Origin: Ignavibacteria bacterium | Lineage (GTDB): Bacteria > Bacteroidota > Ignavibacteria > Tepidaquicellales > OLB5 | Assembly: GCA_019912545.1 (NCBI GenBank) | Contig: JAIOIK010000075.1 | Coordinates: forward strand, 1 to 64,000 | Direction: 5' to 3' | Length of the DNA: 64,000 nt | In this document: one piece after another, positions 12,387 to 19,147 of the stretch | Numbering within the stretch: the first letter of the stretch is position 1 | How the letters are laid out: each line of letters opens with the position of its first letter | Translations under genes and position numbers: made by a program | The notes under the pieces: model-generated | What the model was told of the DNA's origin: nothing | Databases searched by the model: none | Seen by the model: the letters and a program-made list of their open reading frames with translations, nothing else

Positions 12387-12758
12387 ATGAAAAAAGTTTA
12401 CGTAGCCATATTATTTAGTCTATTTTTTGTCTTCGGCACTTTAACAGTGAGCGCCGATAATAAAGAACAGCTTATGGATTTCAAGGGTAATCCCGATAAG
12501 TTCGAACTCAATCAGAATTATCCCAATCCATTCAATCCATCTACGTTGCTTTCATATAACCTCAAGACAGATGCCAATGTTAAATTAACAGTATTTAACC
12601 TTGTCGGACAGTCGGTGCGGATCTTAGTCGATGGCTATCAAACAGCCGGAGAGTACGAAGTTCTATTTGATGCAAATGAGCTTCCCGCGGGCGTTTACCT
12701 CTATAAACTACAAGTCGGTGATTATTCCTCTGTAAAGAGGATGACTCTGGTTAAGTAG
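12387..12758 (+). CDS. minimal T9SS sorting-domain protein
   Basis: 123 residues, made of a Sec signal peptide (about 1-23, ending TVSA), a linker of only about 18 residues, and a complete type-A T9SS sorting domain (from FELNQNYPNPFNPS at about residue 40 through VYLYKLQVGDYSSVKRM to the terminal LVK). There is no room for a cargo domain. It could be a substrate-free competitor, a remnant, or a small surface protein in its own right. It has its own promoter and lies next to another sorting-domain gene. Confidence 0.85.
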   Translation: MKKVYVAILFSLFFVFGTLTVSADNKEQLMDFKGNPDKFELNQNYPNPFNPSTLLSYNLKTDANVKLTVFNLVGQSVRILVDGYQTAGEYEVLFDANELPAGVYLYKLQVGDYSSVKRMTLVK

Positions 12759-12815
12759 TTTACTTAATACTTACTTACATTATTTCATAACTTATTCATG
12801 GGGGTAGTTCAATTA

Positions 12816-13736
12816 ATGACTAAAATCATTACGCGCTTTGTGTTTACAATTTTTGCAATTTTACTTTCTTCATCAGTTGTCCTTGCACAAAACAATAACT
12901 TGTTCGTTATAGATGGTTTCGGAGACCACACACTTCCCGGCTGGTATTCAGGCGGCGATCTTTCAATGAAATACTCTCATTCTTCCGATAATCTCGAAAA
13001 CGGGTATGGCGTAATTTCTTCTTCAAACAAAACAATTACACCGAACTCCTTCGCAGGGCTTATCAGGAAAGAGTCTAAAATGCAGGTTGCTGAGGATAAT
13101 ATCCTGTCTGTAATGCTCCAGGGCATTAATAACGATATGACAACAACTATCCAGGTATTGTTCGATAAGAATAATGACGGCAAGTATGATGAAGCTACAG
13201 ATTCAAGGCTTGAATCCAAGCCGCTGAGTCTTAATTTTTCAGGGTGGAAAGAAGTTCATTTTAACATAAATCAAAGCGAGTTTAAGGTAATATCAAAAGG
13301 CAATGAAGATGATTTCTCGCTGCTTGAGCAGGAAGCCTTAGGCATCCAGTTCACATTCCAGACAGGAAAAGATTTTACTCCGGGTGCCATTGAAACCGGT
13401 GTTGCAATGATAGCCGAGAGATACAGCAAAGAACTGAAGCAGGAAACTGCTCAGACTGAGATGAATTCAGGCGAATCATACTTTAACGCTAAGAATTATC
13501 CGAATCCATTCAATCCTGAAACCAAGATCAATTACACATTAAAAAGTGCAACAAACGTTAAGATGACGGTTTATGACCGTCTTGGCCGCGAAGTTGTTGT
13601 TCTGGTTGATGAAAGCCAGTCCGAGGGCGAGCATTCAGTTACTTTCAATGCTGCAAACCTTCCTTCAGGCGTTTACTTCTACAGGATAAAAACCAATGAA
13701 TATGTTGAAGTAAAGAAAATGGTATTTACGAAGTAA
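12816..13736 (+). CDS. T9SS-sorted secreted protein, unknown cargo
   Basis: 306 residues from the ATG at 12816, which puts the signal peptide (TKIITRFVF ... VVLAQ) at the N-terminus; an ATG at 12798 would add six residues. The cargo part (about 25-215) contains FDKNNDGKYDEATDS, a dockerin-like or EF-hand-like acidic loop, in an otherwise unrecognised beta-rich domain. The final 80 residues are a type-A sorting domain (NYPNPFNPETKINY ... GVYFYRIKTNEY). It is exported through the Sec and then T9SS routes and attached to or released from the cell surface. Confidence 0.85.
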   Translation: MTKIITRFVFTIFAILLSSSVVLAQNNNLFVIDGFGDHTLPGWYSGGDLSMKYSHSSDNLENGYGVISSSNKTITPNSFAGLIRKESKMQVAEDNILSVMLQGINNDMTTTIQVLFDKNNDGKYDEATDSRLESKPLSLNFSGWKEVHFNINQSEFKVISKGNEDDFSLLEQEALGIQFTFQTGKDFTPGAIETGVAMIAERYSKELKQETAQTEMNSGESYFNAKNYPNPFNPETKINYTLKSATNVKMTVYDRLGREVVVLVDESQSEGEHSVTFNAANLPSGVYFYRIKTNEYVEVKKMVFTK

Positions 13737-14982: not shown

Positions 14983-15013
14983 TTGACACTCACAAAAAAA
15001 ATTTGTAAGTTTG
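14983..15013 (+). promoter_or_regulatory. Bacteroidetes-type promoter of structured RNA
   Basis: TTG (14983-14985, within TTGACA) and TAAGTTTG (15006-15013) with a 20-bp spacer are a full match to the phylum consensus. Start of transcription is predicted at about 15020, exactly where the outermost helix of the downstream RNA begins. Confidence 0.85.
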
Positions 15014-15017
15014 TAAT

Positions 15018-15253
15018 AACACTAATTAACGGACATTTAATAACTAAACCACGGGGATGAAAACCAGGAAATAATATGACAAACTTCATCACTACATATA
15101 TGGTGACAATCACATCACCCATTTTCAAAGTTCTCGTGGGAGACGAATGTCCAACGGTTAGCGTTAAACGGAGGTTTAAGGGATAAAACCTCGAATAAAT
15201 AAGAGTTTAAGCAAACCGCGGACAGATTAAAAATGATGTTCGCGGTTTTTTTT
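15018..15253 (+). ncRNA. candidate structured non-coding RNA or long leader
   Basis: About 235 nt between a consensus promoter and an intrinsic terminator. Helices readable by eye: 15018-15025 with 15158-15165 (one mismatch), 15031-15037 with 15146-15152, 15049-15055 with 15133-15139 (one G-U), then two hairpins inside that domain, 15056-15061 with 15085-15090 and 15102-15106 with 15115-15119. A separate hairpin 15171-15177 with 15186-15192 follows, then the terminator 15213-15224 with 15237-15248 (12 bp) and eight Ts. It does not show hallmarks of tmRNA, RNase P RNA, SRP RNA or riboswitch classes that I can recall. 6S RNA is a possible identity. It could also act as an attenuating leader for the ABC exporter 128 bp downstream. 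Confidence 0.7.
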
Positions 15254-15264
15254 ACGCCCCACCC

Positions 15265-15289
15265 GGCTCTCCGGCCGCGGCGGAGAGCC
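15265..15289. repeat. GC-rich palindrome between RNA and exporter genes
   Basis: A 9-bp perfect stem (GGCTCTCCG with CGGAGAGCC) with a GC-rich loop, followed by CCACCCTCCCC and GGTGAGGGTG. It resembles the CT-rich repeats at 13.9 kb and 55.2 kb and separates the structured RNA from the ABC gene. Confidence 0.6.
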
Positions 15290-15380
15290 ACCCTCCCCAA
15301 AGGTGAGGGTGAAGAATCAAAAAGAAAATTTGATAAGATTGCTTCAGGTACAAAAGTACCGTCGCAAAACAATAATAAAA

Positions 15381-17279
15381 ATGAAAAGTTTAAAAAAATT
15401 ATTTGAAATTCTCGGAAAGTGGAAATACCAGTATATTTCCGCCGGAGTTCTATTAATCATATCGGTTGGTTTCCGCTTAATGGAGCCGAAAGTTCTGCAA
15501 ATAGCAGTCGATAAAATAATCAGCATATTCGTTGCAAAACAAAGCCTGCCGGTAAGTGAAAATGACTTTGTCACAAAAAATCTTTACAAACTGCTTCCGG
15601 AGCTGAGAATTGAAAATGCGGGAATGATACTTGTTTATCTTGGTATAATATTCCTTGTGATCGCTTTGTTAAGAGGAGTAACAATGCTCACCTCAAGCGC
15701 AATTGCAGCATCGTCAACTGAAAAGGCCATGAAGCAGCTAAGGGATAAACTCTTTTCACATCTTCAGCATTTGCCAATGGAATATTTCAGCAAGACGCCA
15801 ACAGGTGAGCTCATCCAGCGATGCACAGGTGATGTTGAAACACTCAGGAAATTTGCCACAATGCAGGTTACTGAAACAATAAGGCTTGGCGCAATATTTG
15901 TTGGCGCATTTGCTATGATGTACATGGTAAACCATACATATGCGTTCATTGCGATCTGCCTCTTCCCGATAGTGATATCGGCATCTTACTTCTTCTTTAA
16001 GAAAGAAGGAGAGATATGGACAAAGCATGAACATGAGCAGGATAAGCTAACTGCGCTTGTACAGGAAAATCTTTCAGGAATTCGCGTTGTGAAGGCATTT
16101 GCAAAGGAGAATTATGAAATCGATAAGTTCACCAAGCAGAACGAGCAAAAGCGTAAATGGGGACTCCGACTGCTGAAGCTTCATGCTATATACTGGCCAA
16201 GCAGTGATGTAATGGTTTACCTTCAGCTTGCAATCAGCATTTTTGCCGGCGGTTTTTTTGTGCTGAATAACAAAATTACCATTGGAGAGTACACGGCATT
16301 CTTCACTTACGCTGCATATGTAACATGGCCTATGAGAAGGCTTGCCCAGCTCGTAAGCGAGATGGGAATGACGCGTGTTGCGATAGATAGAATATACTCG
16401 ATTCTTGATTACAGTCAGGAAAACTATCAAGGATTTGATAATAGCGGAAATGACCTCGCCGGGGTGATCGAATTTGAGAATGTTCATTTCAAATACGATG
16501 ATGATGAAAAACCTGTGCTGAACGGAGTCAGTTTTAAAATAGGTGCAGGTGAAAAAGTTGCCTTGCTTGGCCCAACAGGCGCAGGAAAGTCAACTATAAT
16601 TTCTTTGCTCATGAGATTCTATGATCCTACAAGCGGTACGATCAGGATTGACGGAAGGGATATAAGAGAATACTCGCGCCCGTTCTTAAGGAATAAAATC
16701 GGTGTAGTTCTTCAGAAGCCGTTTTTGTTCTCTACTTCTATCAAAGAGAATATTGCATATTCAAAGCCTGATACACATATTGATGAAATAGTTGAGTCGG
16801 CAAAAGTCGCGAATGTTCATAAAATAATCAAAGAGGCTTTCCCGAACAGCTACGATACAGTTGTAGGCGAAAAGGGAGTAACGCTTTCAGGAGGACAAAA
16901 GCAGCGTGTAACACTGGCAAGAACGATACTCAAGGATCCGGATATTCTTGTACTTGATGACTCAACATCATCGGTTGATACAGAAACCGAGTTTGAGATC
17001 CAAAGGGCTCTCAAAGGAGTCACTAAGGATAAAACTACCATCGTCATTGCTCACCGCGTGACATCAGTGCAGGAGTGCAGCAGGATAATTGTTCTGGATA
17101 AAGGAAGAGTCATAGAGATGGGGACACATGAAGAACTGATTGAGAACGATAAATTCTACAGGAAAATATACGATATCCAGGTATCGATAGAGGATGAGAT
17201 AAACAGAGATATCGAAAACTTAACTGAATTAAAAAGTAAAAGGGCAAATGTGAAAATAGAATTGAATTCAGTAGCATAA
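15381..17279 (+). CDS. heterodimeric ABC exporter subunit, degenerate ATP site
   Basis: 632 residues from the ATG at 15381 (KSLKKLFEIL). The longer frame from 15303 begins in repeat sequence and is unlikely. A six-helix MsbA/LmrA-type membrane domain (about 1-320) is fused to a nucleotide-binding domain with Walker A GPTGAGKST from Gly397, signature LSGGQKQR and H-loop IAHRVTS. The Walker B is LVLDDSTSS: Asp527 replaces the catalytic glutamate. This is the pattern of the degenerate half in heterodimeric exporters such as TM287/288. The partner is the next gene (38 bp). The cargo (lipid, drug or peptide) is unknown. Confidence 0.93.
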   Translation: MKSLKKLFEILGKWKYQYISAGVLLIISVGFRLMEPKVLQIAVDKIISIFVAKQSLPVSENDFVTKNLYKLLPELRIENAGMILVYLGIIFLVIALLRGVTMLTSSAIAASSTEKAMKQLRDKLFSHLQHLPMEYFSKTPTGELIQRCTGDVETLRKFATMQVTETIRLGAIFVGAFAMMYMVNHTYAFIAICLFPIVISASYFFFKKEGEIWTKHEHEQDKLTALVQENLSGIRVVKAFAKENYEIDKFTKQNEQKRKWGLRLLKLHAIYWPSSDVMVYLQLAISIFAGGFFVLNNKITIGEYTAFFTYAAYVTWPMRRLAQLVSEMGMTRVAIDRIYSILDYSQENYQGFDNSGNDLAGVIEFENVHFKYDDDEKPVLNGVSFKIGAGEKVALLGPTGAGKSTIISLLMRFYDPTSGTIRIDGRDIREYSRPFLRNKIGVVLQKPFLFSTSIKENIAYSKPDTHIDEIVESAKVANVHKIIKEAFPNSYDTVVGEKGVTLSGGQKQRVTLARTILKDPDILVLDDSTSSVDTETEFEIQRALKGVTKDKTTIVIAHRVTSVQECSRIIVLDKGRVIEMGTHEELIENDKFYRKIYDIQVSIEDEINRDIENLTELKSKRANVKIELNSVA

Positions 17280-17317: not shown

Positions 17318-19147
17318 ATGTCACAATTAAAAGATAAACAATTCAAAACAAAAGGCGCTCTCTGGCCATTCTTAAGGCGGTTGCTTAAATACAGCTTTCG
17401 ATATCCCAAATGGGTAGCGGGTTTTATTGGCTTTGTACTGCTTGTCGCTCTTGTAGAAGCGGTTTACCCGCTTGTATGGTTAAGTCTAATAGATACCGTT
17501 ATTGTACCTGCTGTCGAGTCATACAAGTTTAACGGATTTGTTAAAGATATCGATTCCGTTGCTCTCAGAAACTATGGTATAGTCTTTGGAGCACTGGGGC
17601 TTATACTTGCAGGCGGAGTATTTGGATTTATCAACTTCGCAGGGCGTATACAGGAATATGTTATGTATGATATAAGACAGGAGCTTTTCATAAAACTTCA
17701 GCAGCTTTCATTTTCGTATTTTGATAAGTCTGCAGTGGGCTGGCTGCTTTCAAGGATATCATCTGATACAGTGAAAGTGACCGAGCTTATTTCATGGACA
17801 ATGATAGAAGCTATATGGGGAACTGGAATGATAATCTTTTGCGTAACTTCCATGTTCATTTACAACTGGAAGCTTGCTGTAATTATCACGCTTACTATTC
17901 CTGTTCTGATGCTCGTCTCTATAAAGCTTAGAATGCTGATACTCAGGTATTCGCGTGAAGCCAGGAAGTATAACAGCGAAATGACAGCCAGGTTTAACGA
18001 ACACATAAACGGTGTTGAAGTTAACAAAAGCCTTGTGCAGGAATCGAGGGTTAGCGATAACTTCAAAGAACTCAGTGACAAAATGAAAGTGTCTTCATAC
18101 AAAGCCGCGTATTACCAGGCAATTTTCATGCCGCTTATAATTTTCGGCGGATCGCTTGCTGCTGCTTTTGTGATCTATTATGGCGGCTCAATGGCAATTG
18201 CAATACCTGCAGCCATAACGGTTGGAACACTTGCAGCTTTTTTCGGGTATGCAACTATGATATTTGAGCCGATCCTGGATATTTCAAGATTCTATTCACA
18301 GGCGCAAAACAGTATTTCGGCAGGCGAAAGAATATTTTCTCTTATTGATACTAAAGCCGAAATAGTGAACATTACGGGTGCAGGTGAGTTCGGCAGAATT
18401 GAAGGTGACGTAGAATTTGATAATGTTTCATTTCATTATGAAACCGGTAAACACGTTTTACAGGATTTGAATCTGAAAATAGAAGCCGGTACGTCGATAG
18501 CTCTTGTTGGTGAAACCGGTGGCGGTAAATCAACAATTATTAATCTGATTTGCAGATTCTATGAACCCACAGGCGGCAGGATAATGATAGATAATACTGA
18601 TTACAAGCAGAACACAATGGAAAGCCTAAGAAGCCAGCTTGGCGTTGTACTGCAAACGCCGCATTTGTTTTCCGGTACAATTCGAGAGAATATTATGTAT
18701 GGATATGAGGGTGCGACTGATATGGAAATAATAAATGCTCTGAACACTGTTGGCGCCGAAGAATATGTATTTAGACTTGATGAACAGGTCGGTGAGGGAG
18801 GAGAGCAGCTTTCGATGGGTGAGAAACAGCTCATATCATTTGCCCGTGCAATACTGGCGGATCCCAGGATATTTATAATGGATGAAGCTACATCTTCGGT
18901 TGATACAATTACCGAGGCAAAGATCCAGAAAGGAATTTCCGGAATAATGGAAGGTAGAACTTCTATAATTATTGCACACAGGCTTTCGACAATTAAAAAC
19001 AGCGATAGGATACTTGTAATTAACAAAGGAAGAATAATTGAAGACGGCAGCCACAGGGAATTGATGATGAGCAAGGGAGTATATTATAAACTGTACACTA
19101 GACAACTAAGGGCTGAAAGAGAAAAAGAAGTCATAAATGCCGCATAA
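17318..19147 (+). CDS. heterodimeric ABC exporter subunit, catalytic ATP site
   Basis: 609 residues with the same layout as its upstream partner: six membrane helices, then a nucleotide-binding domain with Walker A GETGGGKST (398-406), Walker B IFIMDEATSS with the catalytic Glu523, and H-loop IAHRLST. Its signature motif is LSMGE (498-502) rather than LSGGQ. Combined with the Asp in the partner's Walker B, this gives one hydrolytic and one degenerate ATP site across the dimer interface. The two genes are adjacent and surely encode one inner-membrane complex. Confidence 0.94.
   Translation: MSQLKDKQFKTKGALWPFLRRLLKYSFRYPKWVAGFIGFVLLVALVEAVYPLVWLSLIDTVIVPAVESYKFNGFVKDIDSVALRNYGIVFGALGLILAGGVFGFINFAGRIQEYVMYDIRQELFIKLQQLSFSYFDKSAVGWLLSRISSDTVKVTELISWTMIEAIWGTGMIIFCVTSMFIYNWKLAVIITLTIPVLMLVSIKLRMLILRYSREARKYNSEMTARFNEHINGVEVNKSLVQESRVSDNFKELSDKMKVSSYKAAYYQAIFMPLIIFGGSLAAAFVIYYGGSMAIAIPAAITVGTLAAFFGYATMIFEPILDISRFYSQAQNSISAGERIFSLIDTKAEIVNITGAGEFGRIEGDVEFDNVSFHYETGKHVLQDLNLKIEAGTSIALVGETGGGKSTIINLICRFYEPTGGRIMIDNTDYKQNTMESLRSQLGVVLQTPHLFSGTIRENIMYGYEGATDMEIINALNTVGAEEYVFRLDEQVGEGGEQLSMGEKQLISFARAILADPRIFIMDEATSSVDTITEAKIQKGISGIMEGRTSIIIAHRLSTIKNSDRILVINKGRIIEDGSHRELMMSKGVYYKLYTRQLRAEREKEVINAA

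Follow-up and report, generated by a model that had tools for sequence, protein, structure and literature searches.

The structured RNA encoded at positions 14,983 to 15,253, ahead of two ABC exporter genes of an Ignavibacteria bacterium, very probably forms the 5' leader of their operon and acts as a ribosome-mediated transcription attenuator. The DNA analyzed, referred to here as the window, comprises positions 1 to 64,000 of the forward strand of contig JAIOIK010000075.1 (assembly GCA_019912545.1; GTDB lineage Bacteria; Bacteroidota; Ignavibacteria; Tepidaquicellales; OLB5), with the leader and both exporter genes encoded on this strand. A preliminary description of the region had proposed an independent, highly structured RNA equipped with a promoter and a terminator. 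The promoter, the long rod of helices, the side hairpin and the terminator were all recovered in place, and both the sequence and the fold energy support a structured RNA bounded by its own promoter and terminator. A conserved open reading frame (ORF, 15076-15186) and an alternative pairing of 15147-15169 with the 5' arm of the terminator, both unremarked or underplayed in that description, lead to a different reading of its function.

Promoter, fold and terminator

A Bacteroidota-type promoter, TTG-N20-TAAGTTTG, was recognized by sequence at 14983-15013 (TTG at 14983-14985 and TAAGTTTG at 15006-15013), with transcription predicted to start at about 15017-15020. The fold of positions 15010-15260 has a predicted energy of -62.4 kcal/mol against -44.6 +/- 4.3 kcal/mol for dinucleotide shuffles (z -4.16), and none of 200 shuffles matched the native value. 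The helix GGACATT/AATGTCC, described earlier as joining 15031-15037 to 15146-15152, is present, and so is the intrinsic terminator of 12 bp and eight T (15213-15253; AAACCGCGGACA..TGTTCGCGGTTT), whose arms lie within 15213-15248 and whose T-run extends to 15253. At gathering scores no Rfam family was found at the leader, in agreement with the earlier statement that the RNA is not tmRNA, RNase P or SRP RNA; the only matches in the window were two tRNAs, and loose thresholds gave chance matches only at the leader, the best of them far under threshold.

Linkage of the leader to the exporter genes

The first gene downstream of the terminator, ABC1 (15381-17279), encodes a half-size exporter with a degenerate Walker B motif (LVLDD), and the second, ABC2 (17318-19147), a partner half-size exporter that reads as having a degenerate signature (LSMGEKQ) and an intact Walker B motif (IMDEA). 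This combination is typical of heterodimeric exporters in which one of the ATP sites is degenerate, such as TM287/288 and BmrCD, and by these motifs ABC1-ABC2 would belong to the same type. The family matches of both proteins were to multidrug and MsbA-type exporters, all under curated cut-offs. Elsewhere in the neighborhood, positions 12387-13736 encode two proteins with a C-terminal domain of the NYPNPFNP.. type, which we presume to resemble the sorting domains of type IX secretion.

Of 59 related genomes, 21 gave matches in a DNA search for homologs of the leader, the weakest being fragments of 20-60 bases, some of which matched by chance. A search with ABC1 covered 44 genomes of the order, of which 28 have the ortholog, in 31 copies altogether; ABC2 is present in 27 of 43 such genomes and nearly always adjoins ABC1. 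Each of the 31 ABC1 copies is preceded by the leader: 30 upstream regions were read in the full set, while the remaining copy (L022) was seen separately. Every one of the 30 leaders read contains an ORF of 33-43 codons and a terminator, and 28 have the TTG/TAnnTTTG promoter at the same place (one exception is cut by a contig end and the other has diverged), although the leaders are kin to each other and such counts across genomes are therefore not independent. In all leaders the terminator follows the stop codon, with its T-run ending 56-68 nt past the stop. In 25 of 25 genomes there is a single exact occurrence of the motif AACCGCGG-N(4-24)-CGCGGTTTTTTT, each time at the leader, and the reversed pattern, used as a control, had zero occurrences. 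One genome (G006) carries four copies of leader and exporter (contigs C9, C217, C333 and C431); its estimated contamination is 6%, and the four copies may reflect a mixed assembly, perhaps of mixed strains.

The N-terminal 250 residues of ABC1 had no match outside the order at E<=1e-50 among 245 genomes of the class, and in a phylum-wide covariance search the best scores outside the order were <=46 bits, against 90+ bits for members. Three of these outside matches were inspected (L059, L060 and L065) and were ordinary terminators after unrelated genes.

The TTG/TAnnTTTG promoter is missing between the terminator and ABC1 in all 30 leaders (gap of 15-238 nt), so that transcription of the exporter genes most likely has to pass the leader terminator, as judged from a scan for lineage-type promoters. 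In the window this gap contains the palindromic stretches GGCTCTCCGGCCGCGGCGGAGAGCC and CACCCTCCCCAAAGGTGAGGGTG (15259-15312), which look like inserted repeats because the gap varies so widely in length among the relatives. The same observations bear on whether the region encodes an independent non-coding RNA, such as one of 6S-like type or a regulatory sRNA, whose position before the exporter genes is a matter of chance. Such an RNA could well have its own promoter and terminator and a rod as stable as this one, but it would have to be one without an Rfam match, with an ORF conserved across the rod, with a fixed linkage to an ABC1 gene that otherwise has no promoter of the lineage type, and with a terminator arm for which a conserved antiterminator partner is built in. 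We consider it highly improbable, and the word independent in the preliminary description is not supported.

The leader ORF

The leader ORF (15076-15186) has 36 codons and the translation MTNFITTYMVTITSPIFKVLVGDECPTVSVKRRFKG*. All 14 homologs at the level of genus or family have exactly 36 codons with no insertions or deletions, and among these leaders pN/pS in codons 2-20 is 0.61, while the remaining two frames give 1.33 and 1.27; the 36-residue frame is thus conserved, an outcome that the preliminary description had named as evidence against its own proposal, and not all of the RNA is non-coding. The value of pS is lower in codons 21-36 (0.27 vs 0.49), a drop to be expected if these codons also take part in pairing. 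These substitution patterns point to amino acid constraint on the N-terminal half of the ORF.

Both the constancy of length and the constraint on the N-terminal half would suit a functional small protein, a partner of the exporter or an exported peptide, for which the RNA structure would be secondary. Against this, in the sister family little of the peptide can be recognized beyond PW..RR, in which the Pro-Trp codons are themselves a pairing arm, the choice of synonymous codons is tuned to pairing, and the peptide has no match in Pfam or NCBIfam. We consider a small protein as the purpose of the region highly improbable as well.

Alternative pairings of the leader

Three segments of the leader are predicted to form two mutually exclusive pairings, 1:2 and 2:3, the second of which would use the 5' arm of the terminator. 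Region 1 (15017-15038) is the anti-antiterminator segment of the 5' UTR and lies some 38-59 nt 5' of the start codon. Region 2 (15147-15169) consists of codons 24-31, near the 3' end of the ORF, and can pair with either region 1 or region 3. Region 3 (15206-15225) is made up of the 5' arm of the terminator, AAACCGCGGAC, and the upstream GUUUAAGC, and would be the antiterminator partner of region 2. In the window the 1:2 duplex (region 1 with 15143-15166) has a predicted energy of -18.1 kcal/mol (z -3.3) and the 2:3 duplex one of -17.2 kcal/mol (z -3.3 relative to synonymous recodings). Over the 30 leaders the mean energy of 2:3 is -18.9 kcal/mol; compared to synonymous recodings of the same peptide its mean z is -2.4 (negative in 30/30 and p<0.05 in 20/30), and compared to a shuffled arm -3.6 (p<0.05 in 29/30). 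The 1:2 duplex averages -15.7 kcal/mol with a mean z of -2.8 (p<0.05 in 23/30), being weak in L038 and a few other leaders. Native partners paired better than the mean of partners taken from other clades in 29/30 leaders for 1:2 and in 28/30 for 2:3.

Compensatory changes accompany these pairings. The motif CCGCGG is found in region 3 of 29/30 leaders, and the exception, L038, has CCGCAG with a matching change in region 2, its arm GCCGCAGAC being mirrored by GUCUGUCGGC in its ORF. Where the arm reads CGGGU, as in one clade, the ORF contains GCCCG. The sister family has UCACGGA in the 5' UTR, UCCGUGGUU (Pro-Trp) in the ORF and AACCGCGGA in the terminator, so that in the place of region 2 its Pro-Trp is encoded by UCCGUGG, the complement of the CCGCGGA arm. 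In the outer parts of both helices the pair types vary while the pairing is kept.

A riboswitch binding a metabolite or a drug, with the ORF present incidentally, could also account for a structured leader that has alternative folds, lies before a transporter operon and is missing from Rfam. The parts that are conserved, however, are the ORF, the pairing arms and the terminator; no conserved unpaired core resembling a binding pocket was seen among the leaders of the two families, their middle parts differ freely, and the ORF is never lost. We regard a riboswitch as no more credible than a small protein.

Proposed mechanism of attenuation

In the attenuator that we propose, RNA polymerase would start at about 15018 and transcribe in turn region 1, the 36-codon ORF with region 2, a hairpin at the stop codon and the terminator 3:4. 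If no ribosome were present, regions 1 and 2 would form the rod, leaving region 3 free, and the terminator would form. Unhindered translation would have the same outcome, as a ribosome over the 3' part of the ORF would hide region 2. A ribosome slowed or stalled within the first ~21 codons, for example by ribosome-targeting drugs, would break the rod, upon which region 2 would pair with region 3, no terminator would form and the exporter pair would be transcribed. We infer from this arrangement that the leader ORF is translated and that read-through occurs in response to an inducer. The likeliest inducing signal would be a drug, acting through slowed translation of the leader as ribosome-targeting drugs may do.

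The effect of ribosome position was examined by folding, codon by codon, the RNA ahead of the ribosome before the 3' arm of the terminator has been made. In nearly all leaders, 8-12 antiterminator pairs were predicted with the ribosome up to about codon 19-22 and mostly zero with the ribosome past about codon 25. For every leader except L038 the predicted stability of the antiterminator region exceeds that of the terminator hairpin, narrowly so in a few. These folding predictions support a role for ribosome position on the ORF in deciding between the two folds. In many leaders the ribosome-free equilibrium fold up to region 3 favors 2:3 rather than 1:2; when the leader is not translated, the off state must therefore depend on the order of folding.

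A leader that senses amino acid starvation through Trp or Arg codons, as the Trp of the sister family and the paired Arg codons CGG AGG of most leaders might suggest, can practically be dismissed, since the window peptide has no Trp, L038 and L046 lack Arg altogether, the operon encodes an exporter, and a ribosome paused at such codons would cover region 2 and favor termination. Rare-codon pausing at CGG-AGG was also considered and rejected: AGG is common here and CGG rare, and in L051 the motif is out of that frame.

The stop-codon hairpin and the GGAGG motif

The stop-codon hairpin (15171-15192) has the arms GAGGTTT (15171-15177) and AAACCTC (15186-15192), with the UAA stop codon (15184-15186) at the junction of the loop and the 3' arm, and it is re-formed with different sequences in most leaders. 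A GGAGG motif (15170-15174), most of it inside this hairpin, lies 9 nt before the stop, and a similar motif is found 7-13 nt (mostly 9 nt) before the leader stop in 25/30 leaders. L051 retains it even though it falls outside the Arg-Arg frame there. One speculative and rather unlikely reading is that GGAGG serves as an internal anti-Shine-Dalgarno anchor, which would keep the ribosome at the leader's end and help to block the antiterminator; if true, it would amount to a novel timing device for attenuation. It would operate in a lineage where Shine-Dalgarno sites seem to play little part in initiation. In the window a weak or better Shine-Dalgarno-like motif was seen upstream of only 6 of 43 long ORFs, and the pattern of the 16S rRNA 3' end was not found in the source assembly.

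Relation to known attenuators

The leader very probably represents a new family of a known kind, the ribosome-mediated attenuator, and it gives a defined leader family for exporter control in Ignavibacteria that is absent from Rfam; the literature searched yielded no paper on leader-peptide attenuation in Ignavibacteria. With the trp-type leader-peptide attenuators it would share the alternative helices 1:2, 2:3 and 3:4 read by ribosome position, but it differs from them in that it has no run of sensing codons, region 1 lies before the ORF and the gene controlled encodes an exporter. The nearest characterized system is bmrB-bmrCD of Bacillus subtilis, for which experiments have established that translation of bmrB is needed, that a terminator limits expression and that drugs targeting the 50S subunit cause read-through (PMC4191407). 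The likeness is one of anatomy, with a leader ORF, an anti-antiterminator, an antiterminator and a terminator before an ABC exporter of heterodimeric type in both, that of B. subtilis being a multidrug exporter (PMC4191407), whereas the bmrB terminator is located inside the 53-codon ORF and that of the Ignavibacteria leader past the stop codon, at which a hairpin is found. The placing of region 1 ahead of the start codon in the window is a further point of difference. The 'ABC-leaders' of Naville and Gautheret (PMC2965389) are likewise predicted premature terminators before ABC transporter genes; theirs was a general prediction, with Bacteroidetes unmentioned in the main text (PMC2965389).

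The nearest relatives of ABC1 in Firmicutes (Tissierellia, Soehngenia and Clostridia) also have leaders upstream: L087 (2268-2490), L088 (2332-2490), L091 (2282-2490) and L099 (1974-2125). The presence of similar leaders before these relatives suggests that ribosome-sensing control of heterodimeric multidrug-type exporters extends well beyond Bacillus. As in the Ignavibacteria leader, the last codons of the leader ORF can pair with a 5' region or with the terminator arm (1:2/2:3/3:4), but in these four the part of region 1 is played by the ribosome-binding site (GGGUCGUG in three), and their sequences differ from those of the Ignavibacteria leaders. L087, L088 and L091 have two terminator-like hairpins in tandem, and near their ends the peptides of these three read ..TRPM, ..LRPM and ..TRPW.
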